In this document: piece after piece, positions 19,062-44,639 of the stretch
Numbering within the stretch: position 1 is the first letter of the stretch
Layout: each line of letters opens with the position of its first letter
Notes under the pieces: generated by a model
Databases searched by the model: none
Told to the model about the DNA's origin: nothing
The model's input: only the letters and a program-made list of their open reading frames with translations
Program-made: the position numbers and the translations under genes
From: Microbacterium sp.
GTDB taxonomy: Bacteria; Actinomycetota; Actinomycetes; Actinomycetales; Microbacteriaceae
Direction of reading: 5' to 3'
Length of the DNA: 64,000 nucleotides
NCBI GenBank assembly: GCA_013823625.1
Contig: PNMM01000001.1
Coordinates: 62,001-126,000, forward strand

Positions 19062-20270
19062 CTAGTCGAGCCGACCGACGGTCGCGGTGGTGTCGAATCT
19101 CACAACGCCAACAGCGGCGGTCTGGTCCTCCACGCGAAAGCTCGCGGCAAGCGGGGCATCATCGATGGTTGACCTGTTGGCGGCGTAGATGGTCGCCCGA
19201 ACGTGGTACTCGCCTTTAGCCAGGGCGCTGTCGGGCAACAAGAAAGCGACGTCGTAGGTTCCCGGCTTCGACGGCAGCCCGAGGCTCATGCCGTGCGTGT
19301 TGATGCCGTACACGGCGTTCCCGGCTGGGGTTTGAATCCCAATGCCCACGATGAGGCCTGGGTCAACCGAAGCGATGCGGTATCTCACGGCGACGGAAAT
19401 GTCGCCACCGGGGAGAAAGTCTCCTGCGAGGTTGGTCTTCGTCGACGTGAGGCGAACGCTCTCGACCCGGGCGCCCGTGGTTAGCTCTTCGAGAACTGTC
19501 GCTCCCGTGGTGTCGGTCGCTGCAGTCCCGGCCACGAATGACTCGCGAAGCGCGGCAATGCCGCCTTCGGCATCGCCGTCAAAGATCATGCGCCCGTGGT
19601 CCAGAACAATGACGCGATCACACAACTGCATCACCTGGTCGGCGGAGTGGCTGACGAACACAATCGTGCGCCCCTCGCGCTGGAACTGCTGAATCTTGTC
19701 CATGCACTTTCGTTGGAAGGGTTCGTCGCCGACTGCCAGCACCTCATCGACGAGAAGCAGGTCGGGGTCGACGTGAATCGCCACCGAAAAGGCGAGCCGC
19801 ACGTACATGCCCGAGCTGTAGAACTTCACTTGCGAGTCAATGAACTCACCGATCTCAGAGAACTCGACGATGTCGTCGAAGTATCGGTCGGTCTCTGCGC
19901 GAGACAGGCCGAGGATCGACGCGTTGAGGTAGACGTTTTCACGGCCCGTGAGGTCGGGGTGGAAACCGGCACCGAGTTCGAGCAGCGCGGCGATGCGACC
20001 TCGGCGCTTTACGGTTCCGGAAGTCGGCTGAATGATGCCGCCGATGACCTTGAGCAATGTGCTTTTGCCCGAACCGTTGTGCCCAACAAGCCCGACTGTG
20101 GTGCCGGACTCAATGTCGAGGGTGATGTTGTGGAGGGCCCAGAAGTCGACGCGGTGCTGACGGGCGCGGCGCAGGTTGAGTAGCCGTTCCTTGACTGACT
20201 TGTCTTTGTGCAACACGAAACGCTTTGATGCGTCGGTGACACTCACGATGAGAGGAGCGGGCGACGTCAT
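19062..20270 (-). CDS. wzt: Polysaccharide ABC exporter ATP-binding protein with C-terminal Wzt_C-like domain
   Basis: ALHNITLDIESGTTVGLVGHNGSGKSTLLKVIGGIIQPTSGTVKRRGRIAALLELGAGFHPDLTGRENVYLN ... LLLVDEVLAVGDEPFQ; about 150-aa beta-rich C-terminal extension. Confidence 0.92.
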   Translation of the reverse strand: MTSPAPLIVSVTDASKRFVLHKDKSVKERLLNLRRARQHRVDFWALHNITLDIESGTTVGLVGHNGSGKSTLLKVIGGIIQPTSGTVKRRGRIAALLELGAGFHPDLTGRENVYLNASILGLSRAETDRYFDDIVEFSEIGEFIDSQVKFYSSGMYVRLAFSVAIHVDPDLLLVDEVLAVGDEPFQRKCMDKIQQFQREGRTIVFVSHSADQVMQLCDRVIVLDHGRMIFDGDAEGGIAALRESFVAGTAATDTTGATVLEELTTGARVESVRLTSTKTNLAGDFLPGGDISVAVRYRIASVDPGLIVGIGIQTPAGNAVYGINTHGMSLGLPSKPGTYDVAFLLPDSALAKGEYHVRATIYAANRSTIDDAPLAASFRVEDQTAAVGVVRFDTTATVGRLD

Positions 20271-21190
20271 CACAGCTCCTGCGCAAAGTTGCCTTGCAAG
20301 CGAGCGAAGATGCGCTGGCTTACCCACAGCAAAACGAGGCTCACGCCGAGAGCGATCCACATGCGCAGGGCGAGGTCGGGCGGCCACACGACTCCGCCTT
20401 CGGCGAGAGAGCCGGCGAGCCAGAGGCCCTTTTGCATGCCCAAAATGGCGACCGTCACAGGATTCGCGAGGTACAGCTGCTCAAGCCATGTGCCGCTGAT
20501 CGCATTGCTGACGAACGCATAGGAGTAGACGATGGGCGAAGCCCAAAAGAGCACGGCCAGGATGACCTCGACAAGGTGTTCAAGGTCGCGCAGGTAAACG
20601 GTCAATCCGGCGAGCAAGATACCGAGCGCGGTTCCGAAAACGATGATCAGAACGATTCCGAGGAGCGCGTAGGGCAGGTCGGGCGTGAGCGGAAAGCGCG
20701 AGAGAACGAGCGTCGCCGTGATCAGAATAAGGAACTGCATCGCGAAACTGAACAGAGCGCCGCCGACACTCGCGAGAGGGAAGATCTCGCGGGGGAGGTA
20801 CACCTTCTTCACCAACCCGCCGTTGCTAATGATCGACTTCGTGCCGTTGCCAACGATTTCGATAAAGAGTGTCCACCCGGTGAGTCCGACGAAAACGAAG
20901 ATCGCAAAGTCAGGCACTGCGCGGGCTACACCGAGAATTTGGCCGACGGCAAAGTAGTAGATGAGCAGTTGGGTGAGTGGGCGCACAAGGCTCCACAGAA
21001 CACCGAGAGAGCTGTCTTTGTAGCGCGCCTTGAGCTCGCGACGAACGAGGAGGCCGAGTAGTTCTCGCTGGCTCCAGATCTCTCCCAGTGAACGCACTGC
21101 GCCGCGAAAGAACCCCTGAGTTCGCCCGACTTGTACCATCGGCAGCGTTTCGATGCGCGCTGCGCGCTCGGCGGCGCCGGAATCTGTCAC
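20270..21190 (-). CDS. wzm: Polysaccharide ABC exporter permease
   Basis: LGEIWSQRELLGLLVRRELKARYKDSSLGVLWSLVRPLTQLLIYYFAVGQILG; ABC-2 membrane protein adjacent to wzt. Confidence 0.92.
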   Translation of the reverse strand: MTDSGAAERAARIETLPMVQVGRTQGFFRGAVRSLGEIWSQRELLGLLVRRELKARYKDSSLGVLWSLVRPLTQLLIYYFAVGQILGVARAVPDFAIFVFVGLTGWTLFIEIVGNGTKSIISNGGLVKKVYLPREIFPLASVGGALFSFAMQFLILITATLVLSRFPLTPDLPYALLGIVLIIVFGTALGILLAGLTVYLRDLEHLVEVILAVLFWASPIVYSYAFVSNAISGTWLEQLYLANPVTVAILGMQKGLWLAGSLAEGGVVWPPDLALRMWIALGVSLVLLWVSQRIFARLQGNFAQEL

Positions 21191-21235: not shown

Positions 21236-21619
21236 CTAATTGATGTCCCTCTTGCCAGCACTGTCGCCGTCGCGATCTTCCGCTTCGCGCAGACGAAGGT
21301 CGAGCATCGCGACTTTCTCCGCGAGGGTGCGCGTCTTCGCCTCGAGTCTCGTGAGTTCGGCGCTGTGTTGAAGGTGGGCGAGGAAGAGAACCGTGATGCT
21401 GGCGAAGAAGACAAGGTTCGTCGGCACGGCGACACCGAGAGCATCTGCTGTCCACTGCAGGATCGAGGGGAACACACCGATCACGAGAGCGATCATGCCG
21501 CCGAGGAGCCACCAGATCGCATGCCGCTCTCGCAAAGATCCACGGCGCAGCATTTCGATGATGATCACGAGCACAAGCACGGCCGAGAGGATTCCGAAGA
21601 TATAAGAAGCGGTGCTCAT
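21236..21619 (-). CDS. DUF2304-like small membrane protein
   Basis: MSTASYIFGILSAVLVLVIIIEMLRRGSLRERHAIWWLLGGMIALVIGVFPSILQWTADALGV...NLVFFASITVLFLAHLQHSAELTRLEAKTRTLAEKVAML. Start overlaps the GT2 stop by 4 nt. Confidence 0.8.
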   Translation of the reverse strand: MSTASYIFGILSAVLVLVIIIEMLRRGSLRERHAIWWLLGGMIALVIGVFPSILQWTADALGVAVPTNLVFFASITVLFLAHLQHSAELTRLEAKTRTLAEKVAMLDLRLREAEDRDGDSAGKRDIN

Positions 21620-22341
21620 GAGGCGCCTTTCGGAAGATGTGACGAATCCGGCGCTTGACGGATCAAGCCAATAAGGAGGGCGATGGATGCGCGACCAAGA
21701 TAGACCGCACTCCGCAACGGCTGGTGCGACGGTGTGCCTCCCGATCGCTCGCGCATAACGACGGGTACCTGCACGACGCGGCACCCCGCCTTGCTCGCGA
21801 TGACGAGGGCCTCGATCGTGTCGCCGAGATACTCAGCGGGGTAGTCGCGAGCGAAGAGGTCGAGCGCGCGGGGACCCATCGCCTTGAAGCCCGATGTTGA
21901 ATCGGTCAGCTTTTGGCCGGTGATGCGACTCAGAACGATCGACAGCACAACCATCGCCCATCGGCGAGGGCCGCGAACCACGTAGTCGCCGCGACCAGCG
22001 AAGCGTGCACCGATCACAAGGTCTGCGTGCTCAAGCTGTTCTAACAGTCGCGGTACCTCGCTGGGGTCGTGCTGCCCGTCGGCATCGATCTGCACGGCTT
22101 GGGTGTAGCCGCGGTCACGAGCGAATCGAAAACCCGCTCGCATCGCGGCTCCCACACCGAGATTGAAGGGCAATGAAATGACGGTGGCACCAGCGGCACT
22201 CGCGACGTGACGCGTCGCGTCGGTAGAACCATCGTCGACGACCAGCAAGTCGAACGCCGGGAGCGCGCGGCGAACATCCGCAATCGTCACCGCGACCGAC
22301 TGTTCCTCGTTGAAAGCGGGCATGATCAGCAGGGTCGTCAC
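21616..22341 (-). CDS. GT2 family glycosyltransferase, polyprenyl-phosphate sugar synthase-like (DPM/GtrB type)
   Basis: TLLIMPAFNEEQSVAVTIADVRRALPAFDLLVVDDGSTDATRHVA ... QIDADGQHDPSEVPRLLEQLEHADLVIGAR. Confidence 0.88.
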   Translation of the reverse strand: MTTLLIMPAFNEEQSVAVTIADVRRALPAFDLLVVDDGSTDATRHVASAAGATVISLPFNLGVGAAMRAGFRFARDRGYTQAVQIDADGQHDPSEVPRLLEQLEHADLVIGARFAGRGDYVVRGPRRWAMVVLSIVLSRITGQKLTDSTSGFKAMGPRALDLFARDYPAEYLGDTIEALVIASKAGCRVVQVPVVMRERSGGTPSHQPLRSAVYLGRASIALLIGLIRQAPDSSHLPKGAS

Positions 22342-23609
22342 GCACTCCTCCTTTGCTCTGAGCGTAGGGCCGCGGAGTCACGTCGTGCGTCGAGCAGCAG
22401 CACGATGGCGGCTGCGCTGCCGAGTAGACCGTTCGCGATGATGTAGTGCTCAACCGTCGGCAGCAGAGCGACACCGGCGATGCCTTGGGCCACGGCGACG
22501 ACGATCACCACGACGAGGCCGAAACGCGATGCGACGGCCGTGGTGCGGATGAGCACGGCTTGAGCGACTGCCCAGGGTACGAAACTGATCGCGAGCAGCG
22601 GAAGATAACTGATTGCCAGCGAGTACTCACCGCCGAAAAGAAGCTCGATGATCGGTCCGGCGATGAGCGCGAGCGCGAGGGCAACGAGGATGCCGCCACC
22701 GAGGGTCACCAAGAGGGTCAGCGTAAGACCGCGTCTCGATCGCGCTCGATCGTCGCTGTGCACCACGAAGCGTGGCAGCAGGTACAGCGACAGCGTCGCG
22801 GGAATAATGAGAGTCGTCTTGACCAAAACGGCGGCGGCGGCGTACGCCCCGGCTTCGGTCGTTGATGCCAGCGCCCGCACGAGAATCACATCAACATTCG
22901 TGACGACGGCGAAGGCGATCGTCAGCAAGAGCACAACTGTCGTGTCTCGGTCGAAGGCTCGACGGCTAGTAGGAGTGCTCAGCCGCCGCGCCTGCATGCT
23001 CGACCCAAAGGTGCCGAGAATCACTGTCGCGAGAACCGCGATGAGCACCCCGGTGACCCCAAAGCCAAGCATCACGACAGCGACGGTGAGCGCGAGCTGC
23101 AGCACCTGCGATCCTGTCGTCCAATAGACGACGGCACGCGTACGGCCGAGCCCTTGGAGCACTCCTTGCGCGCGAGCAAAGAGGAAGTATGGAAGCAGGG
23201 CTGCCGTTGTGATGGCAAGCGCCAGCGGCGTGCTGTCGAGGGCGATCAGCAACCACGGCGCGAGAACGACAACGGTCAGAGTCGAGGCTCCGCCCAAGAT
23301 GAGTGATTCCGTGAGGGCGGTATCACGCGTCGCTCCCCCCGGCTGACCAGCAGGGGCGAGAGTAGCTCGAGCGGCGTTGACCGCAACCGAGGTGCGTAGC
23401 GCGCCACTCCCGATCGCGACGATGTTGATGACCGCGAGAAGGGCCGCGAGCAAGCCAAAGTCGGCTGGTCCGAGGCCCCGTACGGCGACGATCTGGAAGC
23501 CAGCAGTTGCAATGATTCCGACGATGCTGACGATCGCGATTGTGCCGAGCTCTCGACCATGTCGCGCTAGCGACGACGAGGCGGGCGACGGGTCGCCGCC
23601 GTCAGTCAT
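22338..23609 (-). CDS. Polysaccharide/oligosaccharide flippase (Wzx/MATE-like)
   Basis: Multi-TM protein with ELGTIAIVSIVGIIATAGFQIVAVRGLGPADFGLLAALLAVINIVAIGSGALRTSVAVNAAR; polysaccharide_synt pattern. Confidence 0.82.
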   Translation of the reverse strand: MTDGGDPSPASSSLARHGRELGTIAIVSIVGIIATAGFQIVAVRGLGPADFGLLAALLAVINIVAIGSGALRTSVAVNAARATLAPAGQPGGATRDTALTESLILGGASTLTVVVLAPWLLIALDSTPLALAITTAALLPYFLFARAQGVLQGLGRTRAVVYWTTGSQVLQLALTVAVVMLGFGVTGVLIAVLATVILGTFGSSMQARRLSTPTSRRAFDRDTTVVLLLTIAFAVVTNVDVILVRALASTTEAGAYAAAAVLVKTTLIIPATLSLYLLPRFVVHSDDRARSRRGLTLTLLVTLGGGILVALALALIAGPIIELLFGGEYSLAISYLPLLAISFVPWAVAQAVLIRTTAVASRFGLVVVIVVAVAQGIAGVALLPTVEHYIIANGLLGSAAAIVLLLDARRDSAALRSEQRRSA

Positions 23610-24711
23610 CGGCGGTCGGATCCCCGACGACGGGGGGTTTCGGCTCTGCGTACCCCCGCCGAGCAAGGTCGTCAACGATGATCTCGGAGGGGGAGTGCGG
23701 CGGGCGCATGGCGGGCCGTCGATACTGCTCGAAAGACTTAAGGAAGTCGGTCAGAGCCGATGAGCTCCACCCCGACAGCACGATGTTCTCGCCGACGCCC
23801 TCTTGCTGCTCTGTCGTGACGCGGTGCACGAGGGTTGGCACACCGACGAGCGCGGCCTCCGCCTGGATCCCGCCCGAGTCAGTGACGATGAACGACGCAC
23901 GGCGCAGCAGACTAATGAACTGCTCGTGCGGCAACTTGTCTTGCACCTGGATCATGCCGCCGTCGGCCGCCGCGAGCAGGCCGGGAATCGTCTCTCGTGC
24001 GTACGCGTCCACGAAGAAACGCAGGGGAAGAGGGCTCTCTGCCGCGAGCACCCTCATCGTCTCTTCGACGAGCTCTCGGTTCGACAGGTACTCGTATCGG
24101 TGAAGGAGTACGACGCCGACCGGATCACGTTCGCTGGGCGCATCGACCGCGTGATCGAGCACGGCGTCGATGACGGTGTTGCCATGGGTGTAGACGACGT
24201 TCTCTTTGCCCGCGAGGTTCGCCGTCGCTTCCTCAGACGGCGTGTAGTGGATTGTGGCGAGCCGTCCGGCAATTCGTCGGTCAAGCTCCTCAGGGAACGG
24301 ATGCCGCCAGTTCCCAGAGCGGAGTCCGGCCTCGACGTGAGCCGAGGGTAGGCCCAAGCGTCGCGCGATCCACGTTCCCACAACTGTCGTGAGCGTGTCG
24401 CCGTGCACGACGATGATCGAGTGGGCCGGCAAACTCGCCCGCAGACCGCGTCTCTCGGCGCGCACCCACCGCCAGATCGTCCACAACCAGCGCACGACAT
24501 CCCGACTGCTACCGAGGGGGGCGCTGCCGTTGCCGTAGGCGATGATTCGATCCGGCTCGGGAAGGCCCAGCTCGGGGATCATGCGTGTCAGCGATTCTGT
24601 GTGTTGACACGTCAACCATTGCTCAAAGGGCACCCCGCGTTCCATGAGGCGGCGGGCGATAGGGGCCAGCTTGATCGCTTCGGCTGTGGTGCCGTAGATG
24701 AAGATGATCAT
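23602..24711 (-). CDS. UDP-N-acetylglucosamine 2-epimerase family protein (divergent)
   Basis: VVHGDTLTTVVGTWIARRLGLPSAHVEAGLRSGNWRHPFPEELDRRIAGRLATIHYTPSEEA ... IVTDSGGIQAEAALVGVPTLVHR. Confidence 0.82.
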   Translation of the reverse strand: MIIFIYGTTAEAIKLAPIARRLMERGVPFEQWLTCQHTESLTRMIPELGLPEPDRIIAYGNGSAPLGSSRDVVRWLWTIWRWVRAERRGLRASLPAHSIIVVHGDTLTTVVGTWIARRLGLPSAHVEAGLRSGNWRHPFPEELDRRIAGRLATIHYTPSEEATANLAGKENVVYTHGNTVIDAVLDHAVDAPSERDPVGVVLLHRYEYLSNRELVEETMRVLAAESPLPLRFFVDAYARETIPGLLAAADGGMIQVQDKLPHEQFISLLRRASFIVTDSGGIQAEAALVGVPTLVHRVTTEQQEGVGENIVLSGWSSSALTDFLKSFEQYRRPAMRPPHSPSEIIVDDLARRGYAEPKPPVVGDPTADD

Positions 24712-25799
24712 GGGCTAACCTCCGAGGCTTGCGTACTGGGTTGGCGACGAGCGAAGGCCGCGCGGTGAATCACGAGGCCGCGAACGAGGCCCACCCAGAA
24801 GGCAAGGCCGAAGGGGATGATGAACAGCGCGTAGGCGAGGAGCGCTCGTCGCGGCGCACCGCACCGCGCGCCGACCACAGGTGGAATGCCCAGTGCGATC
24901 ACGGCTACCGCAGCGATAGCAATCGCAATCCAGGCCTGACCGGCCACCAGCGCGATCGCGATCACCAGCACACCCACGAGTGGAGCCGCAGCGAGCGCGA
25001 TGAGGGCGAGTGATCGAGCGAGGGTCGTGCCGGCGTAGCTGTCGACGAAGAGTGTGCCGCGGTCGAGAGTGTGCCTCATGAACGGGCCGAACGACGTGCG
25101 AGGCCGGTACGTCGCTGCGAAGCCCGGGTCGATCTGGATGGGAGTCACAGCGACGAGCGCGCGGAGCAGGGAGGTGTCGTCAGAGACGAGGTGTGTGTCA
25201 GCCGTCGGCCATGCCCGTTCGCACGCTTCGAGAAAGAGGTGTCGATCAACGGCGAAGAGCGTGGTGCCCTTGGGCATGCGATCGAAGTTGTCGAGCGTGA
25301 TGTGCATGGGGCGCGGTTTCGCAAGGTAATCCCGCCAGAAGATGTGTGTAAGCACTTCCCACAGTCGACCGATGAGTGGTGCTTGCTCATCAATCTCTAT
25401 GTGCCCGTTCCACGCCCGAAGCGAACCTGGTTCGGCCAGCCGTTCGAGCAGGTACCGAATCGAATCGGGGTGCATGAGCACTCGCGAATCGAGGAGAATA
25501 ATGTGAGCCGCCGTGGCGGTGCTTGCTCCGACGAATCGGGCGGCAAACCGGCCGCGGTTGCCCTGAGTGACAACCGACACCGCCATACTGTGCGACGCCG
25601 GTCGATCACGCAGCAACTCGGCCGTGCCATCGGTCGAGCCATCGTCGACGACGATCACATTGACCGTGATGCCGGCTACCCGAGCCGCCTCTTCTAGGGC
25701 ATCGAGGGTGCTCGGTAACCAGGGCGCCGAGTTGAAGCTGGGGATCACGACGGCGATGTCGGAAGCGAATGCGCCGACCGAGCCATCACTGTTGCTCAC
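24708..25799 (-). CDS. GT2 family glycosyltransferase with C-terminal TM segments
   Basis: DIAVVIPSFNSAPWLPSTLDALEEAARVAGITVNVIVVDDGSTDGTAELLRDR; hydrophobic C-terminus. Confidence 0.85.
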   Translation of the reverse strand: MSNSDGSVGAFASDIAVVIPSFNSAPWLPSTLDALEEAARVAGITVNVIVVDDGSTDGTAELLRDRPASHSMAVSVVTQGNRGRFAARFVGASTATAAHIILLDSRVLMHPDSIRYLLERLAEPGSLRAWNGHIEIDEQAPLIGRLWEVLTHIFWRDYLAKPRPMHITLDNFDRMPKGTTLFAVDRHLFLEACERAWPTADTHLVSDDTSLLRALVAVTPIQIDPGFAATYRPRTSFGPFMRHTLDRGTLFVDSYAGTTLARSLALIALAAAPLVGVLVIAIALVAGQAWIAIAIAAVAVIALGIPPVVGARCGAPRRALLAYALFIIPFGLAFWVGLVRGLVIHRAAFARRQPSTQASEVSP

Positions 25800-25977
25800 G
25801 TTTTGCTCCGACGGTTGTACGACGAGGTGTGTAGGTTTGTGTCTGCCGACATGACCTAGCGGCTCGACTGGCTGTTCGAGCTTTCACCCTATGGCATGGA
25901 TCACGGCGCGGGGAGTCGGTGACGGCCGTCTGCGCACGTGCTCCGCAACCGTAACCAGTACCTCTCGAGAGCGAGCG

Positions 25978-27486
25978 ATGTCGATGCGATTCCCATCCCG
26001 GGTAGCCCTGCGAGTGGCGGCCCCCGTTGCGTTGTTTGTCGCTTTGGCCAGTTGGGCGATCTCCTCACCAGTGGGGTCGAGCCCCGATGACGACTACCAC
26101 ATGGCGAGCATCTGGTGCGGCCAGGGAGTGCGCGAGGGGCTCTGCGAGCAGGGTGCCGAAGACGATCTCTTCGCGGTTCCGGCTGCCGCCGTTCTCGCAT
26201 CGGAGTGCTTCGCTTTTGATCCCGCTGTCAGCGCGGCGTGCACCGAAGAGGTGCAGGGCGGACTCATCGAGACTCGACGGAGCAATGCGAGCGATGGCAA
26301 GTACCCCGATGTTTTCTACGGGGTAATGAGCCTCTTTGCGACGCCAGACGTGAGTAGCTCGGTCGTGACAATGCGCCTCTTCACGGCTTTTCTCTTCACG
26401 GCATTCACGACGGCACTGTGTTACCTGCTTCCCGTTCGCATCCGGCCGGCCTATGTGTGGGGAGCGCTCGCGACATCGGTGCCCCTCGGCATGTTCATCG
26501 TGCCGAGCGTTAACCCGAGTGGGTGGGCGGTCTTGGCGGCAGTGACGCTTTGGGCTGCCACGCTGGGATGGCTCACCGAGTCTGACCGACGGCGATGGAT
26601 TGCTCTTGGTGCCCTCGCTGCACTCGCGTGCGTGGCTGGCGCGGGAGCGCGGGGTGACGCGGCGGTGTACGGCGTGATGGCGATGACCGCGGCCGCGATC
26701 GTCGGTTTCTCAAAGACGAGGTCGTATCGGCTGCGCCTTCTTCTCCCTTTCGCCTTGACCTTGCTCTCGATCGTTCTCTTCTTCACGGCGGGGCAGGGGT
26801 CAGTCGCTGACCCGAGCGGCCTCGGGCAAGGCACTCCGTGGTCGCAGACGGTGGCGCTCGCCATCACGAATCTGCAGCTCTTGCCAGAGCTCTGGATCGG
26901 TGTTTTGGGTTTCTGGGGTCTGGGGTGGCTCGACACCGAAATGCCCGGCATCGTGTGGGTCACCACGGTGGCTGTCGTCGGGGCCCTGATTGTGATCGGT
27001 CTCAAGCACGCCGATCGCCTCAAGATGCTCGGGGTCGGAATGGTGTTCACCGCCCTCATCGTCATTCCGATGTACATCCTCACCAACGACGAAGTGCTGG
27101 TCGGTTCGTATGTGCAGCCGCGGTACATCCAACCGATCCTGATCGTTCTCGTGGGGCTTGCCCTGCTCCGCGTCCACTCTGGACGTCGCCTTCTGTCGCG
27201 CGGTCAGGCCATGATGATCGTGATTGGGCTCTCGGTAGCCAACGCCGTCGCGTTGCACATCAACCTGCGCCGCTACGTCACCGGAACCGATGTCTTCGGG
27301 CTCAACCTCGACAATGCGACGGAGTGGTGGTGGGCGTTGCCCTTCGGCCCCATGTGGGTGTGGGCCGCGGGTTCTGTCGCGTTCGCCGCACTGCTCGTAC
27401 TGACGAGCCCGTTGCTCGTCACCGCGGTCTCGGCAGACACCGCTCGTGAGGCTTCACCGCGGGCGGCGGAGCTGACGTCCTCGTGA
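25978..27486 (+). CDS. DUF2142-like polytopic membrane protein (copy 1)
   Basis: SSPVGSSPDDDYHMASIWCGQG, VLVGSYVQPRYIQPILIVLVGLALL, LHINLRRYVTGTDVFGLNLDNATEWWWALPFGP. Start revised to ATG 25978. Confidence 0.8.
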   Translation: MSMRFPSRVALRVAAPVALFVALASWAISSPVGSSPDDDYHMASIWCGQGVREGLCEQGAEDDLFAVPAAAVLASECFAFDPAVSAACTEEVQGGLIETRRSNASDGKYPDVFYGVMSLFATPDVSSSVVTMRLFTAFLFTAFTTALCYLLPVRIRPAYVWGALATSVPLGMFIVPSVNPSGWAVLAAVTLWAATLGWLTESDRRRWIALGALAALACVAGAGARGDAAVYGVMAMTAAAIVGFSKTRSYRLRLLLPFALTLLSIVLFFTAGQGSVADPSGLGQGTPWSQTVALAITNLQLLPELWIGVLGFWGLGWLDTEMPGIVWVTTVAVVGALIVIGLKHADRLKMLGVGMVFTALIVIPMYILTNDEVLVGSYVQPRYIQPILIVLVGLALLRVHSGRRLLSRGQAMMIVIGLSVANAVALHINLRRYVTGTDVFGLNLDNATEWWWALPFGPMWVWAAGSVAFAALLVLTSPLLVTAVSADTAREASPRAAELTSS

Positions 27487-28991
27487 CGCGGCGGGCCTTG
27501 ATCGCGGCGGTTCTCGCACCGCTGCTCGCGTTGACGGCGCTCGCCGCCTGGGCATTCGCATCGCCGGTCGGGGCGACTCCCGATGAAGACTTCCACCTGA
27601 CCAGCATTTGGTGTGCCGCGGGCGACCGCACGGGGCTGTGCGAAGAGTCGGGTGATCCCACGACGCGGCTGGTCTCGCCCGCCTTCGCCGAGCCGCCGTG
27701 CTTCGCTTATGTGTCGAGCCAGTCGGCAGTCTGCCAGCTCGATGACCTCAGCAGTACCGCGCTTCTCGAAACTGATCGCGGCAACTTCGTGGGTGCGTAT
27801 CCGCCGATCTTCTACGGCACGATGTCGGTGTTTGCCACTGACGACATCGCGGCCTCTGTTCTTGTTATGCGGCTCGTGAACGCGCTGCTTTTCGTCGGGT
27901 TGATGACCGTTCTCGTCGTGCTGATGCCCGCGCGCCACCGTCCCATGGTCGTGTTGGCCTATCTCGTGACACTCGTGCCGCTCGGGCTCTTTCTCGTGCC
28001 GTCGGTCAATCCCAGCGGCTGGGCGATCGTCGGGGTTGGCATTTCGTGGATGTCGCTGCTGGGCTTCATCGACCGCCCAGACCGCGCTCGCTGGGGGCTC
28101 GCCGCCGTATTCGCCGTGAGTTCGCTCATGGCAGCGGGCGCGCGGGCCGACGCGGGCGTGTTTGTTCTGCTGGGCGTCGCGGCTGTGCTCTTCTTGCGCT
28201 TTGAGCGGTCACGGCGGTTCGCGGTCGATGCGATCGTGCCCGTCGTCGTTGCCTTTGTGAGCATCGCGATCGTGGTGAGTTCGGCGCAGCTCTCGAGCGG
28301 GGTTGGCGGCTTCGGCGGATCCGGGTCGGCTCCGGTGGTCGACGGAGAGTCAGCTCCGGTTCCGACCGGACTCGGCTTGCTGCTTACGAACATCGTCAAC
28401 GTGCCGTCGATCTGGGCCGGCGTGTTCGGGTCGTGGAACCTTGGGTGGTTCGACACGCGCCTGCCCGCTGTGGTGGGGCTCGCGGGCATCGGAGTCTTTG
28501 TCGCCGTCGCCACTCTCGGCTTCGCCCGCATGACGTGGCGCAAAGCCCTCGTGTTTGCCGGGGCGGCGTCGGCGCTCTGGTTTATTCCGGTCTACACGCT
28601 CACGCGCGGCGGCGACCCGGTCGGCCTCGAGGTGCAGCCGCGCTACCTCTTGCCGCTCATCATCATGCTCGTGGGCTTCGCGTTGCTCGCTGTCGGCCAG
28701 TGGGTCGTGGCGATTCCGCTCGCCTTGCGCGTCACCGTCGTGCTCGCCTCGGCTGCGACGCAGTCGCTCGCCCTGTACGTCAACCTGCGCCGCTATGTCA
28801 CCGGCGACGACGTCACGGGGATCAGCCTTGACGCCAATCTCGAGTGGTGGTGGACCGCCGTGCCATCACCCATGGTCGTGTGGGTGCTCGGTTCGCTGGC
28901 GTGGGCTGGCCTGCTCACTCTCGTTGTGCTGCGTCGCCAGCCGGTCGCGGCCCCAGAGCTGCAGAGTCAGGCGATACCGATAACGCGGTAG
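27483..28991 (+). CDS. DUF2142-like polytopic membrane protein (copy 2, tandem paralogue)
   Basis: ASPVGATPDEDFHLTSIWCAAG, PVGLEVQPRYLLPLIIMLVGFALL, LYVNLRRYVTGDDVTGISLDANLEWWWTAVPSP; clear paralogue of 25978..27486. GTG overlaps preceding TGA. Confidence 0.8.
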   Translation: MTRRALIAAVLAPLLALTALAAWAFASPVGATPDEDFHLTSIWCAAGDRTGLCEESGDPTTRLVSPAFAEPPCFAYVSSQSAVCQLDDLSSTALLETDRGNFVGAYPPIFYGTMSVFATDDIAASVLVMRLVNALLFVGLMTVLVVLMPARHRPMVVLAYLVTLVPLGLFLVPSVNPSGWAIVGVGISWMSLLGFIDRPDRARWGLAAVFAVSSLMAAGARADAGVFVLLGVAAVLFLRFERSRRFAVDAIVPVVVAFVSIAIVVSSAQLSSGVGGFGGSGSAPVVDGESAPVPTGLGLLLTNIVNVPSIWAGVFGSWNLGWFDTRLPAVVGLAGIGVFVAVATLGFARMTWRKALVFAGAASALWFIPVYTLTRGGDPVGLEVQPRYLLPLIIMLVGFALLAVGQWVVAIPLALRVTVVLASAATQSLALYVNLRRYVTGDDVTGISLDANLEWWWTAVPSPMVVWVLGSLAWAGLLTLVVLRRQPVAAPELQSQAIPITR

Positions 28992-30256
28992 GTGACATCG
29001 GGCCAACGGTCGGCGCTCGAGACGCGACGACCGTCGATAAACGTGCGGATGCCCGGCAAGTCTGCGGGCCTCAGGGTGCGGTAGTCGGCGTGGTCGGCCT
29101 GCACGACCGCCGCATCCACCGATTCGCCCAGGTGGTAGGGGCTAAACCCGAGGCGCGCGAGCTCGTCGTCGGTGTAGAGCGGATCGTGAACGAGCACGTG
29201 AGCCCCGCGAGCGCACAGAGCCTCAACGGCCGGGAACACGCCCGAGAACGCCGTCTCTTTCACTCCGCCGCGGTAGGTCGCGCCGAGCACGACGACCCGT
29301 TGGCCCTGAAGATCGCCGTGAACCCCCTCGAGCAGGCCGATCGTGTACGCGGGCATTCCGGCGTTCGCTTCGCGCGCCGCGCGCACGATCGTTGCCGCCG
29401 GATCGTTCCAGAGATACAACCGCGGGTAGACGGGAATGCAGTGCCCCCCGACGGCGATACCCGGTTGGTGGATGTGGCTGTAGGGCTGGGAGTTGCTCGC
29501 TTCGATGACCTGGTAGATGTCGATTCCGGCGGTCGCGGCGTACTGTGCGAACTGGTTGGCCAGCCCGATGTTGACGTCGCGATAGGTGGTTTCGGCGAGC
29601 TTTGCCATCTCGGCGGCCTCGGCGCTACCGAGATTCCACACGCCATTGCCGCGGGCCAAGTCGGGGCGCTCATCGAAGTCGAGAGCCGCTTCGTAGAACT
29701 CAACGGCGCGGGCAGCGCCCGCATCGCTCAGGCCGCCAACGAGCTTCGGGTACTTGCGCAGATCAGCGAAGACGCGGCCCGTCAGCACGCGCTCAGGGGA
29801 GAACACGACGTGGAAGTCGACACCCTCGGTCAGCGAGCTGTGCCTCTCGAGCATCGGCTTCCACCGCGTGCGAGTCGTCCCGACCGGCAGCGTGGTTTCG
29901 TACGCGACGAGGGCGCCGGGGCTGAGGTGCGCGGCGATCGAGCGGGTCGCGTCATCCATCCAGCCGAAGTCAGGTACAGCGTTCTCGTCGACGAACAGGG
30001 GCACCACAACGACGACGACCTGCGCGCCGGGGATGCCATCGGCATAATCGGTGGTCGCCCGAAGGCGGCCTGCAGGCACGACCTCGGCGAGTTGCTCGGC
30101 CAGGTTCGCCTCGCCCGGAAAAGGTGTGGTGCCCGCGTTCACGAGGTCGACCGTGGCGGGGTTGACGTCAATGCCGACAACCTCGTGGCCCTTTGAGGCG
30201 AACTGCACAGCGAGCGGCAGCCCGATCTTTCCGAGGGCGACAACGGCGATCTTCAC
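28967..30256 (-). CDS. Nucleotide sugar dehydrogenase (WbpA/WecC-like)
   Basis: MKIAVVALGKIGLPLAVQFASKGHEVVGIDVNPATVDLVNAG ... GTTRTRWKPMLER ... FSPERVLTGRVFADLRKYPKLVGG ... GIAVGGHCIPVYP ... LGATYRGGVKETAFSG. Confidence 0.9.
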   Translation of the reverse strand: MKIAVVALGKIGLPLAVQFASKGHEVVGIDVNPATVDLVNAGTTPFPGEANLAEQLAEVVPAGRLRATTDYADGIPGAQVVVVVVPLFVDENAVPDFGWMDDATRSIAAHLSPGALVAYETTLPVGTTRTRWKPMLERHSSLTEGVDFHVVFSPERVLTGRVFADLRKYPKLVGGLSDAGAARAVEFYEAALDFDERPDLARGNGVWNLGSAEAAEMAKLAETTYRDVNIGLANQFAQYAATAGIDIYQVIEASNSQPYSHIHQPGIAVGGHCIPVYPRLYLWNDPAATIVRAAREANAGMPAYTIGLLEGVHGDLQGQRVVVLGATYRGGVKETAFSGVFPAVEALCARGAHVLVHDPLYTDDELARLGFSPYHLGESVDAAVVQADHADYRTLRPADLPGIRTFIDGRRVSSADRWPDVTYRVIGIA

Positions 30257-30307
30257 GGGCAGGCAATCCTCACGAGGAGCAGGGCGGGGTACCGCACGAG
30301 TCTACGG

Positions 30308-30691
30308 TTAGCCCCGCGGCCGGTTTGCCGCCGCCAACTCCGCCTCGAGGGCGTCAATGCGGTCGACGAGCCGCGCTTCAGTGAGGGTGATCTCACGAGC
30401 CAGCTGAGTGTTTGCGCGGGCGAGCTGTACCGATCGCTTGTACTCATTCACCACATACAGCAGGGCCGCGACGATGAACACGTAGAACAACAGGTCTGAC
30501 CCACGACCGATTCCGACCAGTGAGGCGAGCTGGGTGAGAAGGCCCGGCGCGACGACCACGACGACACCTGCCACGAGGGCGACGAGCACGAGCAGCCGTC
30601 GAATCGCGAGATGTCGTGGGCTCGGGGTCGATCGGATGAGGTAGATCGCGATGCCCACGAGCGACGCGATAAGGATGATCTGGAACCACAT
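30308..30691 (-). CDS. DUF2304-like small membrane protein (second copy)
   Basis: MWFQIILIASLVGIAIYLIRSTPSPRHLAIRRLLVLVALVAGVVVVVAPGLLTQLASLVGIGRGSDLLFYVFIVAALLYVVNEYKRSVQLARANTQLAREITLTEARLVDRIDALEAEL. Confidence 0.78.
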   Translation of the reverse strand: MWFQIILIASLVGIAIYLIRSTPSPRHLAIRRLLVLVALVAGVVVVVAPGLLTQLASLVGIGRGSDLLFYVFIVAALLYVVNEYKRSVQLARANTQLAREITLTEARLVDRIDALEAELAAANRPRG

Positions 30692-30722
30692 GACGGGCGC
30701 CCTCTCCCTGGATTGTTGCCGA

Positions 30723-31436
30723 TCAGTTGATGATGAGGTCGACGAGAATGTTGATCGAGTTGAGCAACGACTGCCCCTTGGCTTTCGAGTAGTCGGTGTA
30801 CAACACTTCGACGGGATGCTCGCGCCACGGCAACCCCGAACGCCCCAGCTGCACCACGATCTCGGTGGCGTGCGCCATGCGGTCTTGCTTGAGGTTGACC
30901 GCCTCAGCGGCGTCGCGCCGGAGCACGCGAAGACCGTTGTGGGCATCGGTGAGGGTGAGGCCGGTCGTGAGATTGGTGACGGCGACTGCCGTTTTCAGCA
31001 CGATCTTCTTGAGCACGCCCGGCTTTGTGCGGTCATCAAGAAAGCGCGAGCCGAAGACAACCCCAAGGTTTTCGTCGCGGGCCTGGTGCAACATGGCGAG
31101 AGCATCGACGACGCGGTGCTGACCGTCGGCATCGAACGTCACGAGAAACTCTGCGGTCGGCTGGCTGCGCGCGTACGCGATGCCCGTCTGCAGGGCGGCA
31201 CCCTGGCCAAGATTGTGCGGATGCCGAAGCACGCGGGCCCCGGCCGCCTCGGCGGTCTCGGCCGATCCGTCGGTCGATCCATCGTCGACACACACAATGT
31301 GCTCAAAGTGTTGTCGCAGCTCGGTGACGACCGCGCCGATGACCGATTGCTCGTTATAGAGCGGGATGACGACCCACGTGGTGGCGTCGAGCGCACCGGG
31401 AAGAACAGGGGAGGGCTCGGCGACCATAGGGGCCAT
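30723..31436 (-). CDS. GT2 family glycosyltransferase, polyprenyl-phosphate sugar synthase-like (second copy)
   Basis: TTWVVIPLYNEQSVIGAVVTELRQHFEHIVCVDDGSTDGSAETAEAAGARVLRHPHNLGQGAALQTGIAYA ... TFDADGQHRVVDALAML. Confidence 0.88.
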   Translation of the reverse strand: MAPMVAEPSPVLPGALDATTWVVIPLYNEQSVIGAVVTELRQHFEHIVCVDDGSTDGSAETAEAAGARVLRHPHNLGQGAALQTGIAYARSQPTAEFLVTFDADGQHRVVDALAMLHQARDENLGVVFGSRFLDDRTKPGVLKKIVLKTAVAVTNLTTGLTLTDAHNGLRVLRRDAAEAVNLKQDRMAHATEIVVQLGRSGLPWREHPVEVLYTDYSKAKGQSLLNSINILVDLIIN

Positions 31437-31504: not shown

Positions 31505-32113
31505 GTGACTCACTCTGCCGACGTTCGCATTGTTGATTCTGCCGATGTCGCTGCCTCTGCGCGCATTGGCTCGGGCAGCTCCATCTGGCATCTCGCTCAA
31601 GTGCGAGAAGACGCCGTGATGGGGGAGAACTGCGTGGTCGGGCGCGGCGCGTACATCGGCACGGGCGTGATCATGGGTGACAACTGCAAGGTGCAGAACT
31701 ACGCGCTCGTGTATGAGCCCGCCGTGCTCGAGGCCGGCGTCTTCATCGGCCCTGCTGTCGTGCTGACCAATGACACGTATCCACGCGCCGTCAATGTTGA
31801 CGGCAGCCCCAAGTCAGCACACGACTGGCAGCCCGTCGGAGTGACCATTCGTGAGGGGGCCGCGATTGGCGCGCGCGCCGTCTGTGTGGCACCCGTCGAG
31901 ATCGGCCGCTGGGCCACGATCGCCGCGGGCAGTGTCGTGACCAAAGATGTTCCCGCTTTCGCCCTCATGGCCGGTGTGCCAGCACGCCGCTTGGGCTGGG
32001 TGGGTAAGGCTGGCGTGCGCCTCATCGAGCAAGACGGTCGCTGGGTGTGCCCGCAGACCGGCCAGAGCTATGTTGAGGCCGACGGCCTTCTGAGAGAGGA
32101 ACCCCTCGCGTGA
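31505..32113 (+). CDS. Left-handed beta-helix N-acetyltransferase, WbpD/WlbB-like
   Basis: VRIVDSADVAASARIGSGSSIWHLAQVREDAVMGENCVVGRGAYIGTGVIMGDNCKVQNYALVYEPAVLEAGVFIGPAVVLTNDTYPRAV. GTG 31505. Confidence 0.88.
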   Translation: MTHSADVRIVDSADVAASARIGSGSSIWHLAQVREDAVMGENCVVGRGAYIGTGVIMGDNCKVQNYALVYEPAVLEAGVFIGPAVVLTNDTYPRAVNVDGSPKSAHDWQPVGVTIREGAAIGARAVCVAPVEIGRWATIAAGSVVTKDVPAFALMAGVPARRLGWVGKAGVRLIEQDGRWVCPQTGQSYVEADGLLREEPLA

Positions 32114-33210
32114 GCAAGCCCCTGATCCCCGCAGCGAAGCCGCTCATCGGTCGAGCCGAGCGCAAGGCCGTTGACCGCGTCTTGCGGTCGGGCATGGTCG
32201 CGCAAGGGCCTGAGGTTGCGGCTTTCGAGGCAGAGTTCGGTGCTCACTTCGTGCAGGGCCGCGCGTGCGTCGCCGTCAACAGCGGCACGGCCGGTCAGCA
32301 CCTCGGCCAACTCGCTGCCGGTGTCGGACCGGGTGACGAGGTCATCGTTCCGTCGTTCACCTTTGCAGCGACCGGTAACTCGGTGGCTCTCACGGGTGCC
32401 ACCCCGGTGTTCGTCGACATCGAGCCGGAGACCTTCGGCCTTGATCCGGCCGCTGTTGAGAAGGCGATCACCAAGAAGACCAAGGCGATCATGCCGGTGC
32501 ACTTGTATGGGCACCCCGCGCGCATGGTTGAGCTCGAGGCGATCGCCCAGAAGCACGGCCTTGAGATTTATGAAGACGCCGCGCAGGCGCACGGGGCATC
32601 ACTCAACGGGCGCCCCGTTGGCACGTGGGGCCGCTTCGCGATGTTCAGCCTCTACCCGACGAAGAACATGACCTCGGGCGAGGGTGGCATGGTCGCGTGC
32701 GACAGCCCCGAGCTCGTGCGGGCCGTCAAGCTGCTGCGCAACCAGGGTCAAGAGATTCAGTATCACAACGAGGTCATCGGCTTCAACGCTCGCATGACCG
32801 ACATTCACGCCGCGATTGGCCGCGTGCAGCTCGGTCGTGTCGATGGCTGGACCACCACGCGCCAGCAGAACGCGGCCTACTTGAGCGCCGGCATCTCGGG
32901 GGTTTCCACTCCCGTCACTGCCCCGGGTGCCGTGCACGTGTTCCACCAGTACACCGTTCGGGTCACCGACGACCGCGATGGCTTCGTCAAGGCCCTGCGC
33001 GAAGAGCACGGTGTGGGCTCGGGCGTCTACTACCCGATTCCCAACCACCGGTTGCCGTCGCTCGCGACGTACGCGCCCGGGCTCGACTTGCCCGAGACCG
33101 AGAAGGCTGCGCGCGAGGTTGTGTCGCTGCCCGTGCATCCGTCACTCTCTCGTCGTGATCTCGACCGCATCGTGACGGCGGTCAACGCCGTGGCGGCGGC
33201 AGGCGCCTGA
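32110..33210 (+). CDS. DegT/DnrJ/EryC1/StrS aminotransferase, WbpE-like
   Basis: IPAAKPLIGRAERKAVDRVLRSGMVAQGPEVAAFEAEFGAHFVQGRACVAVNSGTAGQHLGQLAAGVGPGDEVIVPSFTFAATGNSV ... SLYPTKNMTSGEGGMV. Confidence 0.93.
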   Translation: MSKPLIPAAKPLIGRAERKAVDRVLRSGMVAQGPEVAAFEAEFGAHFVQGRACVAVNSGTAGQHLGQLAAGVGPGDEVIVPSFTFAATGNSVALTGATPVFVDIEPETFGLDPAAVEKAITKKTKAIMPVHLYGHPARMVELEAIAQKHGLEIYEDAAQAHGASLNGRPVGTWGRFAMFSLYPTKNMTSGEGGMVACDSPELVRAVKLLRNQGQEIQYHNEVIGFNARMTDIHAAIGRVQLGRVDGWTTTRQQNAAYLSAGISGVSTPVTAPGAVHVFHQYTVRVTDDRDGFVKALREEHGVGSGVYYPIPNHRLPSLATYAPGLDLPETEKAAREVVSLPVHPSLSRRDLDRIVTAVNAVAAAGA

Positions 33211-34196
33211 TGACGACGCTTCGCGCCGGACTCATCGGCGTTGGCATGATGGGCCGCCACCACGCCCGCGTGCTCCGTGAGCTCGATGGCGTCGAGCTGG
33301 TCGCCATCGCCGACCCGGGCGGCGACCCCCACGGCGTTGCCGGGAGCCTGCCGATTCTCCCCGACATCAACGCGCTCGTTGCCGAAGGCGTCGACATCGC
33401 GGTTGTCGCAGTTCCCACGCGTTTTCACGAGGATGCTGCGCTCACCCTCGCGGCCGCCGGAGTACACACGCTCGTCGAAAAGCCCATCGCCGACACCCTC
33501 GAGGCGGGGCAGCGCATGGTCGACGCCTTCGAGTCGGCAGGATTGATCGGGGCCGTTGGCCACATCGAACGCTTCAACCCTGCTCTGCAAGAGATGCGCC
33601 GTCGCATCGCTGCGGGCGAGCTCGGCGAGGTGCACCAGGTCATCACGCGCCGCCAGGGGCCGTTCCCCTCGCGCATTGCCGATGTTGGCGTGGGCAAAGA
33701 TCTCGCGAGCCACGACATCGACCTCACTGCCTGGGTCGTCAAGAGCACCTACGAAACCGTCTTCGCCCAGATTGCGTTCAAGTCGGGCCGCGAGCACGAA
33801 GACATGATCATCGCGTCGGGCCGGCTGGCCAACGGCGTCATCGTGAACCACATCGTGAACTGGCTCAGCCCCATGAAAGAGCGCATCACGATCGCCACGG
33901 GTGAGGCCGGCGCGCTCGTTGCCGACACCGCCACGGGCGACTTGACGTTCTATGCCAACGGCACCTTCCCGCTCGAGTGGGAGTCGGTCACGGCGTTCCG
34001 CGGGGTGAGCGAGGGCGACATGATCCGCTATGCGTTCCCCAAGCGTGAACCGTTGCGCGTCGAGCTCGAAGCCTTCCGCGACGCCGTGCTCGGCCACGAG
34101 ACCGACCTCGTGACGATGCAGCAGGGTCTGCGCACGCTCGCGGTCGTCGAGGGCGTGCTCGATTCGGCGCGAACGGGCCGGTCGGTCAGCTTCTGA
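33210..34196 (+). CDS. Gfo/Idh/MocA family oxidoreductase, WbpB/WlbA-like
   Basis: LRAGLIGVGMMGRHHARVLRELDGVELVAIADP ... TLVEKPIADTLEAGQRMVDAFESAGLIGAVGHIERFNPALQEMR ... VGKDLASHDIDLTAWV. Confidence 0.9.
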   Translation: MTTLRAGLIGVGMMGRHHARVLRELDGVELVAIADPGGDPHGVAGSLPILPDINALVAEGVDIAVVAVPTRFHEDAALTLAAAGVHTLVEKPIADTLEAGQRMVDAFESAGLIGAVGHIERFNPALQEMRRRIAAGELGEVHQVITRRQGPFPSRIADVGVGKDLASHDIDLTAWVVKSTYETVFAQIAFKSGREHEDMIIASGRLANGVIVNHIVNWLSPMKERITIATGEAGALVADTATGDLTFYANGTFPLEWESVTAFRGVSEGDMIRYAFPKREPLRVELEAFRDAVLGHETDLVTMQQGLRTLAVVEGVLDSARTGRSVSF

Positions 34197-42842: not shown

Positions 42843-44639
42843 TTAGTCGCCCCAGGTTCCGGTGAGGCCAGCGAGCTCTGCTTGTCGAGCAAACTCGGGG
42901 TTCGCCGCCACGAGTTCGTCGAAGGTGCCGTGCGCGGCGAGCACGCCCTCGCTCATGAAGAAGATCTGGTCGGAGTGCTGAATGGTCGCCAGTCGGTGCG
43001 CCACCGTGATGGTGGTGACCCGGCCGCGCAGGCTCGAGATCGCCTCGGTCACACTCGCCTCTGTTGCCGTGTCGAGTGCGCTCGTTGCTTCATCGAGTAC
43101 CAGCACGAGGGGTTGCGCATAGAGCGCACGGGCGATGCCGAGCCGTTGTCGTTGCCCGCCCGAGAGTGAGAGCCCGCGCTCGCCGATGCCGCCATCGATG
43201 CCACCGAAACGCGCCTCGATGGTCGCCAGAAGCTGGGCCTGTTCCAGTGCCGCGACGACTCGATCACGATCGACGTCGTCTGACCAGCTCAACGCCACGT
43301 TCTGAGCGACGGAGGCATCGAAGAGCGACACCTCTTGCGGAACATAGCCGACGCGCGCTCGCCACCACCGGGTCAGTTCGGGCAACGGCGTGCCGTCGAC
43401 CGCGATGATTCCCTGCTCGGGCTGGATGAGGCCCAGCAAGAGGTCGATGAGCGTCGACTTGCCCGAACCCGAGGCTCCGACGATCGCCGCCGTTGATCCG
43501 AACGGGATGCTGAGCGAGACGTCGTGCACCGCCCACTGCTGCGCGCCTGGGTAGCGAAAGCCGACGCGCTCGAGGGAGAGCATGCGTGGCGACTCGATCT
43601 CAGCGACGGCGGTCTCGTCGGCGACAGCCTCAACGCGAGTGGCGCGCGCGTCGAGAATGTCGGTGACCACCGTCTCGACGTAGGGCACGGCCGTCGTGAC
43701 CTGCGTGAGCACGTTCTGAAAACGCTGGATCGAGGGCACCAACCGAAACCCGGCGAGGGCGAAGAGCGAGATTGCCGTGACCGCAGCGGCGAGCCCACCG
43801 GTCAGATAGCTGGCCGCCCCGACGAGCACAAACCCTCCGATGAGAGCGGCTTCGAGCACAACGCGAGGCACATTGCCAAGAATCTGGATGTTCGCGCGCG
43901 CCCGAGCGGTGTGCACACGGTTCTCGCGCACGACCTCGGCGACCTCGTCGACTTTGTCGCGCAGCGTGATCTCTTTGAGCGCACCGACCATCTCGGTGAT
44001 CAGCCGCGACACGGTCATCGAGTAGCGCAGCCCAACGCTGCCGGCTTCGCTTGCTCGCCGTGAGATCCAGAAGTAGAGCACGACGGCGACGAGGCCCAGG
44101 TAGACCAACGAGATTGCGGCGACGAGCGGTTGGGTGACCGAGAGCACGATGAGCACGACCACGAAGGTCATGAGCTCTCCGGGCAGGGTCGCTATGGGCA
44201 GCACGAACCCCGAGATTGTGTTGGCGATGCCAATGTCGGCGATGCGGATGAGATCGGACGAATTGCGCGAAAGCCGGTCAACCCACGGCGCCTTGAGGTA
44301 GGCGTCGAGAAGCTGGTTGCCGATGAGCAGTTCGTAGCGGGCCATGCGCCGTGCGGCAATCCACACGAGCAGCAACGTGAGCGCGCCCTTAACGATGATG
44401 AGCGCACAGACGACGCCGAGCGCGATGAGCAGGCCGACACTGTCGACCTCTCCGATCAGCGGAAGGCGGGCTGGCGTTCCGGCGATGAGGGGCGTAATGA
44501 TGAGGGCGAGTAGCCCCAGGGCAGCGGCATCGAGAATCGACAATAGGCCGAGCTGGGTCGCATAGAGCGCCAAGAACCGCGAGGCGCTGGCCGGCATCAC
44601 CGCAAGCAGTCGGCGCAGAGTGCTGATCAGCGTTCTCAT
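42843..44639 (-). CDS. Fused ABC transporter (TM + ATPase), PglK/MsbA-type flippase
   Basis: Polytopic N-terminus; Walker A GASGSGKST, signature LSGGQRQRLGIARALYAQPLVLVLDEATSALD. Start revised to 44639. Confidence 0.9.
   Translation of the reverse strand: MRTLISTLRRLLAVMPASASRFLALYATQLGLLSILDAAALGLLALIITPLIAGTPARLPLIGEVDSVGLLIALGVVCALIIVKGALTLLLVWIAARRMARYELLIGNQLLDAYLKAPWVDRLSRNSSDLIRIADIGIANTISGFVLPIATLPGELMTFVVVLIVLSVTQPLVAAISLVYLGLVAVVLYFWISRRASEAGSVGLRYSMTVSRLITEMVGALKEITLRDKVDEVAEVVRENRVHTARARANIQILGNVPRVVLEAALIGGFVLVGAASYLTGGLAAAVTAISLFALAGFRLVPSIQRFQNVLTQVTTAVPYVETVVTDILDARATRVEAVADETAVAEIESPRMLSLERVGFRYPGAQQWAVHDVSLSIPFGSTAAIVGASGSGKSTLIDLLLGLIQPEQGIIAVDGTPLPELTRWWRARVGYVPQEVSLFDASVAQNVALSWSDDVDRDRVVAALEQAQLLATIEARFGGIDGGIGERGLSLSGGQRQRLGIARALYAQPLVLVLDEATSALDTATEASVTEAISSLRGRVTTITVAHRLATIQHSDQIFFMSEGVLAAHGTFDELVAANPEFARQAELAGLTGTWGD

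Follow-up and report, generated by a model that had tools for sequence, protein, structure and literature searches.

Two multi-component transmembrane glycosylation modules, resembling the GacI/GacJ/GacK/GacL and PpgS/Rv3632/Rv3779 systems, are likely encoded side by side in a 64,000-nucleotide stretch of DNA from Microbacterium sp. (contig PNMM01000001.1, positions 62,001 to 126,000; hereafter the window). Two gene pairs, each for a family 2 glycosyltransferase (GT2) and a DUF2304 membrane protein, enclose two tandem DUF2142 paralogues (Table 1). All six genes scored above the curated Pfam cut-offs (25.5 bits for DUF2304, 23.3 bits for GT2 (PF00535), and 30.1 bits for DUF2142), and both coordinates and scores agree with the arrangement described in an earlier note on this DNA. 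In the entire 2.45-Mb genome, DUF2304 and DUF2142 are each represented by exactly two genes, and all four lie within this interval; since the only genes of both families cluster here, a chance arrangement can be ruled out. The closest homologues from named organisms place the source in the Microcella/Yonghaparkia group of Microbacteriaceae. In each module, the GT2 with its active site inside the cell would load polyprenyl phosphate with a sugar taken from a nucleotide sugar, and DUF2304 would activate the GT2 as its partner in the membrane. Carrying the lipid-linked sugar across the membrane would be left to a separate flippase, and in one of the modules a third GT2 would extend the lipid-linked sugar. 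Outside the membrane, the polytopic DUF2142 protein would move the sugar from the lipid to a wall polymer, whose exporter is probably the neighboring ATP-binding cassette (ABC) transporter Wzm/Wzt. Systems of the Gac and PpgS type are known; what would be new is the arrangement, in which two adjacent modules use DUF2142 as transferase.

The modules are named after the class of their GT2. Comparisons were made in a sample of 117 Microbacteriaceae genomes (84 genera, one to two genomes each), in which the GT2s were divided by their score against the NCBIfam PpgS model (NF058614) into class P (250–288 bits) and class W (85–121 bits); the window holds one of each. The GT2 of module P reached 276.3 bits, below the equivalog cut-off of 370 bits. 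For the GT2 of module W, in which the motifs DDGSTD and DADGQH are intact, PpgS was the best NCBIfam match with 98.6 bits, also below this cut-off. Both proteins are short, and no C-terminal pair of transmembrane helices was apparent from hydropathy. DUF2304 was always encoded directly downstream of a GT2, as observed for 70 of 70 full matches from 63 of the 117 genomes, and the DUF2304 proteins of the two classes of pairs are related to each other (hhalign probability 97.4%).

The described relatives of DUF2304 point to a helper function. GacJ-like proteins typically carry DUF2304 (PMC8327497), and GacJ forms a complex with GacI, which makes polyprenyl-phosphate-N-acetylglucosamine (GlcNAc), and boosts its activity (PMC10821137, PMC8327497). 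WpsA/WpsB act like GacI/GacJ with WpsB raising the GT2 activity (PMC10821137), and PpgS is assisted by Rv3632 (PMC9671496). Flipping in these systems is attributed to a separate Wzx-type protein, GacK or WpsG (PMC10821137, PMC8035078). Our DUF2304 model, which is of moderate quality (predicted local distance difference test (pLDDT) 85.2, predicted template modelling score (pTM) 0.54), consists of four helices and ends in a long one that extends past the membrane; it thereby agrees with the four helices described for WpsB (PMC10821137). By analogy with these proteins, DUF2304 is most likely a partner or activator subunit of the lipid-sugar synthase GT2 and not a flippase.

In the earlier note, DUF2304 had been assigned the role of the small flippase GtrA within a three-component system of GT2, DUF2304, and DUF2142. 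DUF2304 is indeed similar in size to GtrA, has three to four transmembrane helices, and its gene adjoins that of the GT2 like gtrA adjoins gtrB; such a role is nevertheless highly improbable. The DUF2304 profiles showed no relation to a GtrA profile comprising only five sequences (hhalign 1.0% and 0.2%), and a Foldseek search of the moderate DUF2304 model against the PDB gave no meaningful match and no GtrA or DPMS-TM structure among the matches, so that a relationship to GtrA was rejected. GacJ and WpsB were found experimentally to raise GT2 activity, and GacI and GacJ form a complex (PMC10821137, PMC8327497). Moreover, a Wzx-like gene adjoins the W pair of the window, and at some W-type loci (L085, L090, and L122) a GtrA gene is present in addition to DUF2304. 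Because the relatives of DUF2304 are GT2 helpers and a Wzx-type protein of its own is held responsible for flipping, the system is better described with four components: the DUF2142 part of the original proposal is supported, and the flippase-like gene had been missed.

This gene encodes a Wzx/MOP-like protein with 11 transmembrane helices and overlaps the GT2 gene of the W pair by 4 nt; its product is the predicted flippase of module W. It had no Pfam match and a weak match to an O-unit flippase-like NCBIfam model (E 0.01). Wzx-like proteins were encoded close to 18 of 30 W pairs vs 6 of 31 P pairs, and no Wzx-type gene is adjacent to the pair of module P. Here, the flippase is perhaps the sole GtrA protein of the genome, encoded 15 kb away, or an ABC protein (42843–44597), whose family was more closely associated with P than with W pairs. 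GtrA is a possible flippase for either module.

The role of DUF2142 as acceptor transferase was approached by structure prediction. An AlphaFold model of DUF2142 b based on 75 sequences was of high confidence (pLDDT 93.9, pTM 0.93), and its six best PDB matches in Foldseek were all GT-C enzymes, in the order ArnT, ArnT, EmbC, Pmt4, AftA, and EmbC (probability 0.66–1.00, E 0.006–0.08, TM-score 0.25–0.43). GT-C enzymes carry a catalytic acid directly after the first transmembrane helix. Right after this helix (residues 3–25), in the first extracytoplasmic loop, DUF2142 has a P-D-[DE]-x-x-H motif, in which P33, D34, and H38 never vary and position 35 is either D or E (75 of 75 homologues). An extracellular loop with a DxD-type motif has been mentioned in the literature (PMC8035078), and two lactococcal proteins, WpsJ and WpsI, have been classed as DUF2142 or GT-C (PMC12599335, PMC10821137). 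The GT-C-like model and the acidic motif lend moderate support to DUF2142 being a GT-C-fold transferase, as had been proposed in the earlier note. A sequence-level search for solved relatives of DUF2142, DUF6541, and DUF2304 found none.

Co-occurrence across genomes fits this assignment. A GT-C candidate, i.e. DUF2142 or the 13–15-helix membrane protein DUF6541, was present in 57 of the 63 genomes with DUF2304 vs 18 of the 54 others (odds ratio 19); pairs mostly lacking such a candidate were thus not what was found. The two families are nearly mutually exclusive in the DUF2304 genomes (one only in 56, both in 1, neither in 6), and all seven genomes with two pairs had at least two DUF2142/DUF6541 proteins. 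DUF2142 tracks W pairs (28 of 37 genomes with a W pair vs 20 of 80 without); a link to every pair type was rejected, since it did not extend to P pairs alone. Many pairs without DUF2142 have a DUF6541 protein nearby instead. Outside the family but within the class, the same trend was seen (16 of 23 DUF2304 genomes vs 25 of 129 others), and a DUF2304 gene lay within the 10-kb flanks of 64 of 76 DUF2142 loci from named genomes. Also, other polytopic proteins were encoded near or next to P-type pairs, either in genomes without DUF2142 and DUF6541 (cluster 36; L064, L067, and L077) or in genomes with DUF6541 at a distance (cluster 114; L071 and L203:8258-9781). A Pfam scan of the cluster 36 representative gave no match; both clusters are possible further GT-C families. 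Two Microbacteriaceae-type DUF2142/DUF2304 loci in metagenome-assembled genomes (MAGs) labelled Acidobacteria (L161) and Mesorhizobium (L167), the latter nearly identical to a Micrococcales MAG, are probably mis-binned contigs.

A role for DUF6541 is suggested by a mycobacterium-type genome (G198) carrying a PpgS gene (404.9 bits, above the cut-off of 370) directly followed by DUF2304. Its DUF6541 gene (L200:9510-11597, minus strand) lies about 216 kb from this pair and is followed by the genes for the galactan exporter subunit Wzt, GlfT1, Wzm, GtrA, DprE1, and AftA. We take this position to be the place of Rv3779 on the Mycobacterium tuberculosis map. The arabinogalactan cluster begins with Rv3779 (PMC7168186), which has been assigned the transfer of galactosamine to arabinogalactan (PMC5964476, PMC9671496). 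Judged from synteny, on which the identity with Rv3779 rests, the polyprenyl-phosphate galactosamine transferase is probably a member of DUF6541. The Corynebacterium glutamicum control genome had no DUF6541 match, and no paper in the literature searched mentioned DUF6541 by name. In the mycobacterium-type genome, PpgS and DUF2304 are immediately preceded by a Wzx-like gene for 11 transmembrane helices (L201:10643-11860, minus strand); its product is a candidate for the flippase of the PpgS pathway, which has been called unidentified (PMC9671496).

Phylogeny and synteny assign one DUF2142 protein to each pair. In a tree of 97 DUF2142 proteins, the W and P labels of the loci were clustered beyond shuffling. 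DUF2142 a forms a set of eight together with seven proteins encoded at W loci (support 99), and DUF2142 b groups with three homologues from P loci (support 100). A recent tandem duplication was rejected because the two proteins share only 39% identity and fall into separate clades. In three sister genomes (L123, L124, and L125), the DUF2142 b orthologue starts 112–122 bp after wzm; in the window, both genes are 6.3 kb apart and separated by six genes (DUF2304, GT2, Wzx, Epimerase_2, GT2, and DUF2142 a). Homologues of all six (44–61% identical) occur together at one locus of another genus (L089). Because the sister genomes lack these six genes, module W (21236–27486) is most readily interpreted as a cassette that this lineage acquired, with loss in the sisters being possible, and module P (27483–31436 plus sugar genes up to 34196) as the resident system.

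Two other assignments of the DUF2142 proteins were considered. Both could act in one pathway, one polymerising a lipid-linked repeat like WpsI and the other attaching it to the backbone like WpsJ. In lactococci, both types are described as DUF2142 or GT-C (PMC12599335, PMC10821137), and several relatives have tandem DUF2142 genes but a single GT2-DUF2304 pair. A shared pathway is, however, unlikely given the separate clades of DUF2142 a and b with their different partners, the sister genomes carrying DUF2142 b alone with the P pair, and the association of DUF2142 a with a complete W cassette. Alternatively, DUF2142 b could serve the Wzm/Wzt backbone, and the transferase of module P would be another GT-C encoded elsewhere, such as a PMT-family protein found on another contig of the genome. 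This would match the position of wzm next to DUF2142 b in the sister genomes and the frequent occurrence of DUF6541 with P pairs of other genera. We regard it as quite unlikely, since no DUF6541 occurs in this genome or in the one genome of its genus that was searched, and the three closest homologues of DUF2142 b are all located beside a P pair. Two modules, as assumed in the earlier note, with one DUF2142 per pair are supported by tree, synteny, and genome counts. More generally, we lean towards the view that in actinobacteria a common GT2-DUF2304 core combines with interchangeable DUF2142 or DUF6541 acceptor transferases, that such modules move as cassettes, and that this genome gained a second, independent wall decoration.

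Neighboring genes give hints on the sugar of module P. Before its pair lies a gene for a nucleotide-sugar dehydrogenase, and on the other side, on the opposite strand, genes for a hexapeptide acyltransferase, a DegT aminotransferase, and a Gfo/Idh oxidoreductase are located. Thereby, all four families of the WbpA/D/E/B route to uridine diphosphate (UDP)-2,3-diacetamido-hexuronic acid are present, a route used for actinobacterial teichuronic acids (PMC13274773). Gfo/Idh (WbpB-like) genes were found near 17 of 31 P pairs vs 1 of 30 W pairs. Because the dehydrogenase alone passes its NCBIfam cut-off, and this at subfamily level, we infer the identity of the sugar with caution: module P may use a 2,3-diacetamido-2,3-dideoxy-hexuronic acid or incorporate it into an oligosaccharide. 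In the three sister genomes, an extra glycosyltransferase-like gene (~374 aa) is located between DUF2142 b and the sugar dehydrogenase gene, which the window does not have.

Several observations weigh against two modules of the proposed composition. Neither GT2 of the pairs passes the equivalog cut-off in NCBIfam, no Foldseek match of the DUF2142 model had an E-value below 0.001, and the TM-scores of this model are low. The PMT-family protein means that DUF2142 is not the sole possible GT-C of the genome. The genome counts are uncorrected for phylogeny and shared descent, and the six DUF2304 genomes with neither DUF2142 nor DUF6541 do not follow the trend. P pairs alone are uncorrelated with DUF2142 (12 of 33 vs 36 of 84 genomes), so that DUF2142 b is paired with module P on the basis of tree, gene order, and the lack of DUF6541. 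Furthermore, comparing the profiles of DUF2142 and DUF6541 gave very weak similarity at best (hhalign probability 10.7), and their union in one family was not supported.

The proposed modules provide testable roles for DUF2142 and DUF6541, so far families of unknown function, and a corrected role for DUF2304, and they tie environmental Microbacteriaceae to the pathways for mycobacterial galactosamine and streptococcal group carbohydrates. It may be of general interest that a single conserved GT2-DUF2304 core seems to be combined with either DUF2142 or DUF6541. As decorations of wall polymers are receptors for phages and toxins, a cassette adding a decoration is a plausible way to alter receptors.

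Table 1. Genes of the two predicted glycosylation modules and associated genes in the window.
Feature	Position	Strand	Evidence and predicted role
DUF2304, module W (P0001)	21236..21619	-	PF10066, 87.4 bits; predicted GT2 activator/membrane anchor with three transmembrane helices, GacJ/WpsB-like
GT2, module W (P0002)	21616..22341	-	PF00535, 90.5 bits; predicted polyprenyl-phosphate sugar synthase, GacI-like
Wzx/MOP-like protein with 11 transmembrane helices, module W (P0007)	22338..23609	-	Count of transmembrane helices; predicted flippase
Epimerase_2 protein, UDP-GlcNAc 2-epimerase family, module W (P0008)	23602..24711	-	PF02350, 151.7 bits
Third GT2 with C-terminal transmembrane helices (three), module W (P0009)	24708..25799	-	PF00535, 62.9 bits; predicted extension of the lipid-linked sugar
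DUF2142 a, module W (P0005)	25984..27486	+	PF09913, 173 bits; predicted GT-C transferase
DUF2142 b, module P (P0006)	27483..28991	+	PF09913, 187 bits; predicted GT-C transferase
Nucleotide-sugar dehydrogenase, WbpA/UDP-ManNAc-dehydrogenase-like	28967..30256	-	TIGR03026, 298.9 bits, above cut-off
DUF2304, module P, Rv3632-like (P0003)	30308..30691	-	PF10066, 74.1 bits
GT2, module P, PpgS-like (P0004)	30723..31436	-	PF00535, 86 bits; predicted polyprenyl-phosphate sugar synthase
Hexapeptide acyltransferase	31505..32113	+	PF00132 and cluster position; predicted WbpD-like role
DegT/DnrJ/EryC1 aminotransferase	32110..33210	+	PF01041, 393 bits; predicted WbpE-like role
Gfo/Idh/MocA oxidoreductase, WbpB-like	33210..34196	+	PF01408; best NCBIfam match UDP-GlcNAc 3-dehydrogenase NF040723, 205.8 bits, below the curated cut-off of 450 bits
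Wzt (with Wzt_C) and Wzm ABC exporter	19062..21190	-	PF14524 and PF01061, above cut-off; flanks the presumed insertion point of module W; probable exporter of the decorated polymer
GtrA-family protein, sole match of the genome	5593..6060	-	PF04138, 81.8 bits

The genes of the W pair and those for the Wzx-like protein, the Epimerase_2 protein, and the third GT2 form a compact minus-strand run with overlaps of 4–8 nt, of which 4 nt are shared by the GT2 and DUF2304 genes of the pair. In module P, GT2 and the downstream DUF2304 are separated by 31 nt, and an alternative GT2 start at 31427 is equally likely. On the plus strand, the two DUF2142 genes share 4 nt; for DUF2142 a, three starts come into question (25978, 25984, or 26014). 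The genes for the Wzx-like protein, the Epimerase_2 protein, the third GT2, and the nucleotide-sugar dehydrogenase, which also lie between the pairs, were absent from the account in the earlier note. Elsewhere in the window, rhamnose genes and a WsaF-like transferase gene are located at 10–17 kb, and genes for a PseF/NeuA-like cytidylyltransferase and a NeuB-like synthase of nonulosonic acid metabolism (1471–3068, plus strand) mark the border of this glycan region. Two neighboring genes for Wzy_C (O-antigen ligase/polymerase) proteins with 10–11 transmembrane helices each (57822–60409, minus strand) have homologues in tandem pairs close to several W loci.

Among known systems, GacI/GacJ/GacK/GacL for the GlcNAc side chain of the group A carbohydrate in Streptococcus pyogenes comprises a GT2, a DUF2304-type activator, a Wzx-type flippase, and a polytopic GT-C, and the decorated polymer is exported by an ABC transporter (PMC8035078, PMC8327497), which resembles what is predicted here. 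The window differs in that the predicted GT-C is a DUF2142 protein, two modules and extra epimerase, GT2, and sugar-biosynthesis genes are present, and the organism belongs to another phylum. Module P shares a PpgS-like GT2 (276 bits) and an Rv3632-like DUF2304 with the PpgS (Rv3631)/Rv3632/Rv3779 system, which places galactosamine on arabinogalactan in M. tuberculosis. However, its GT2 scores below the PpgS cut-off, the transferase would be DUF2142 instead of DUF6541, the family at the Rv3779 position, and its neighbors suggest a diamino-uronic acid instead of galactosamine. WpsA/WpsB/WpsG/WpsJ (and WpsI) of Lactococcus combine a GT2 with DUF2304, a Wzx-type flippase, and a DUF2142-containing GT-C, with a possible extension of the lipid-linked unit before transfer (PMC10821137, PMC12599335), whereas in the window two GT2-DUF2304 pairs with one DUF2142 each are found. 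In GtrA/GtrB/Gtr of O-antigen modification and in CsbB/GtcA/YfhO, a lipid-linked sugar is also made inside, flipped, and transferred outside by a GT-C, but there the GT2 has transmembrane helices of its own, and a GtrA flippase takes the place of DUF2304 as the small protein. Finally, Streptomyces teichuronic acids with ManNAc3NAcA/GlcNAc3NAcA (utr genes) are actinobacterial wall polymers containing the sugar expected from the WbpA/B/D/E-like genes of module P (PMC13274773), although other glycosyltransferases, namely UtrC, UtrF, and UtrG, are predicted to build their chains.

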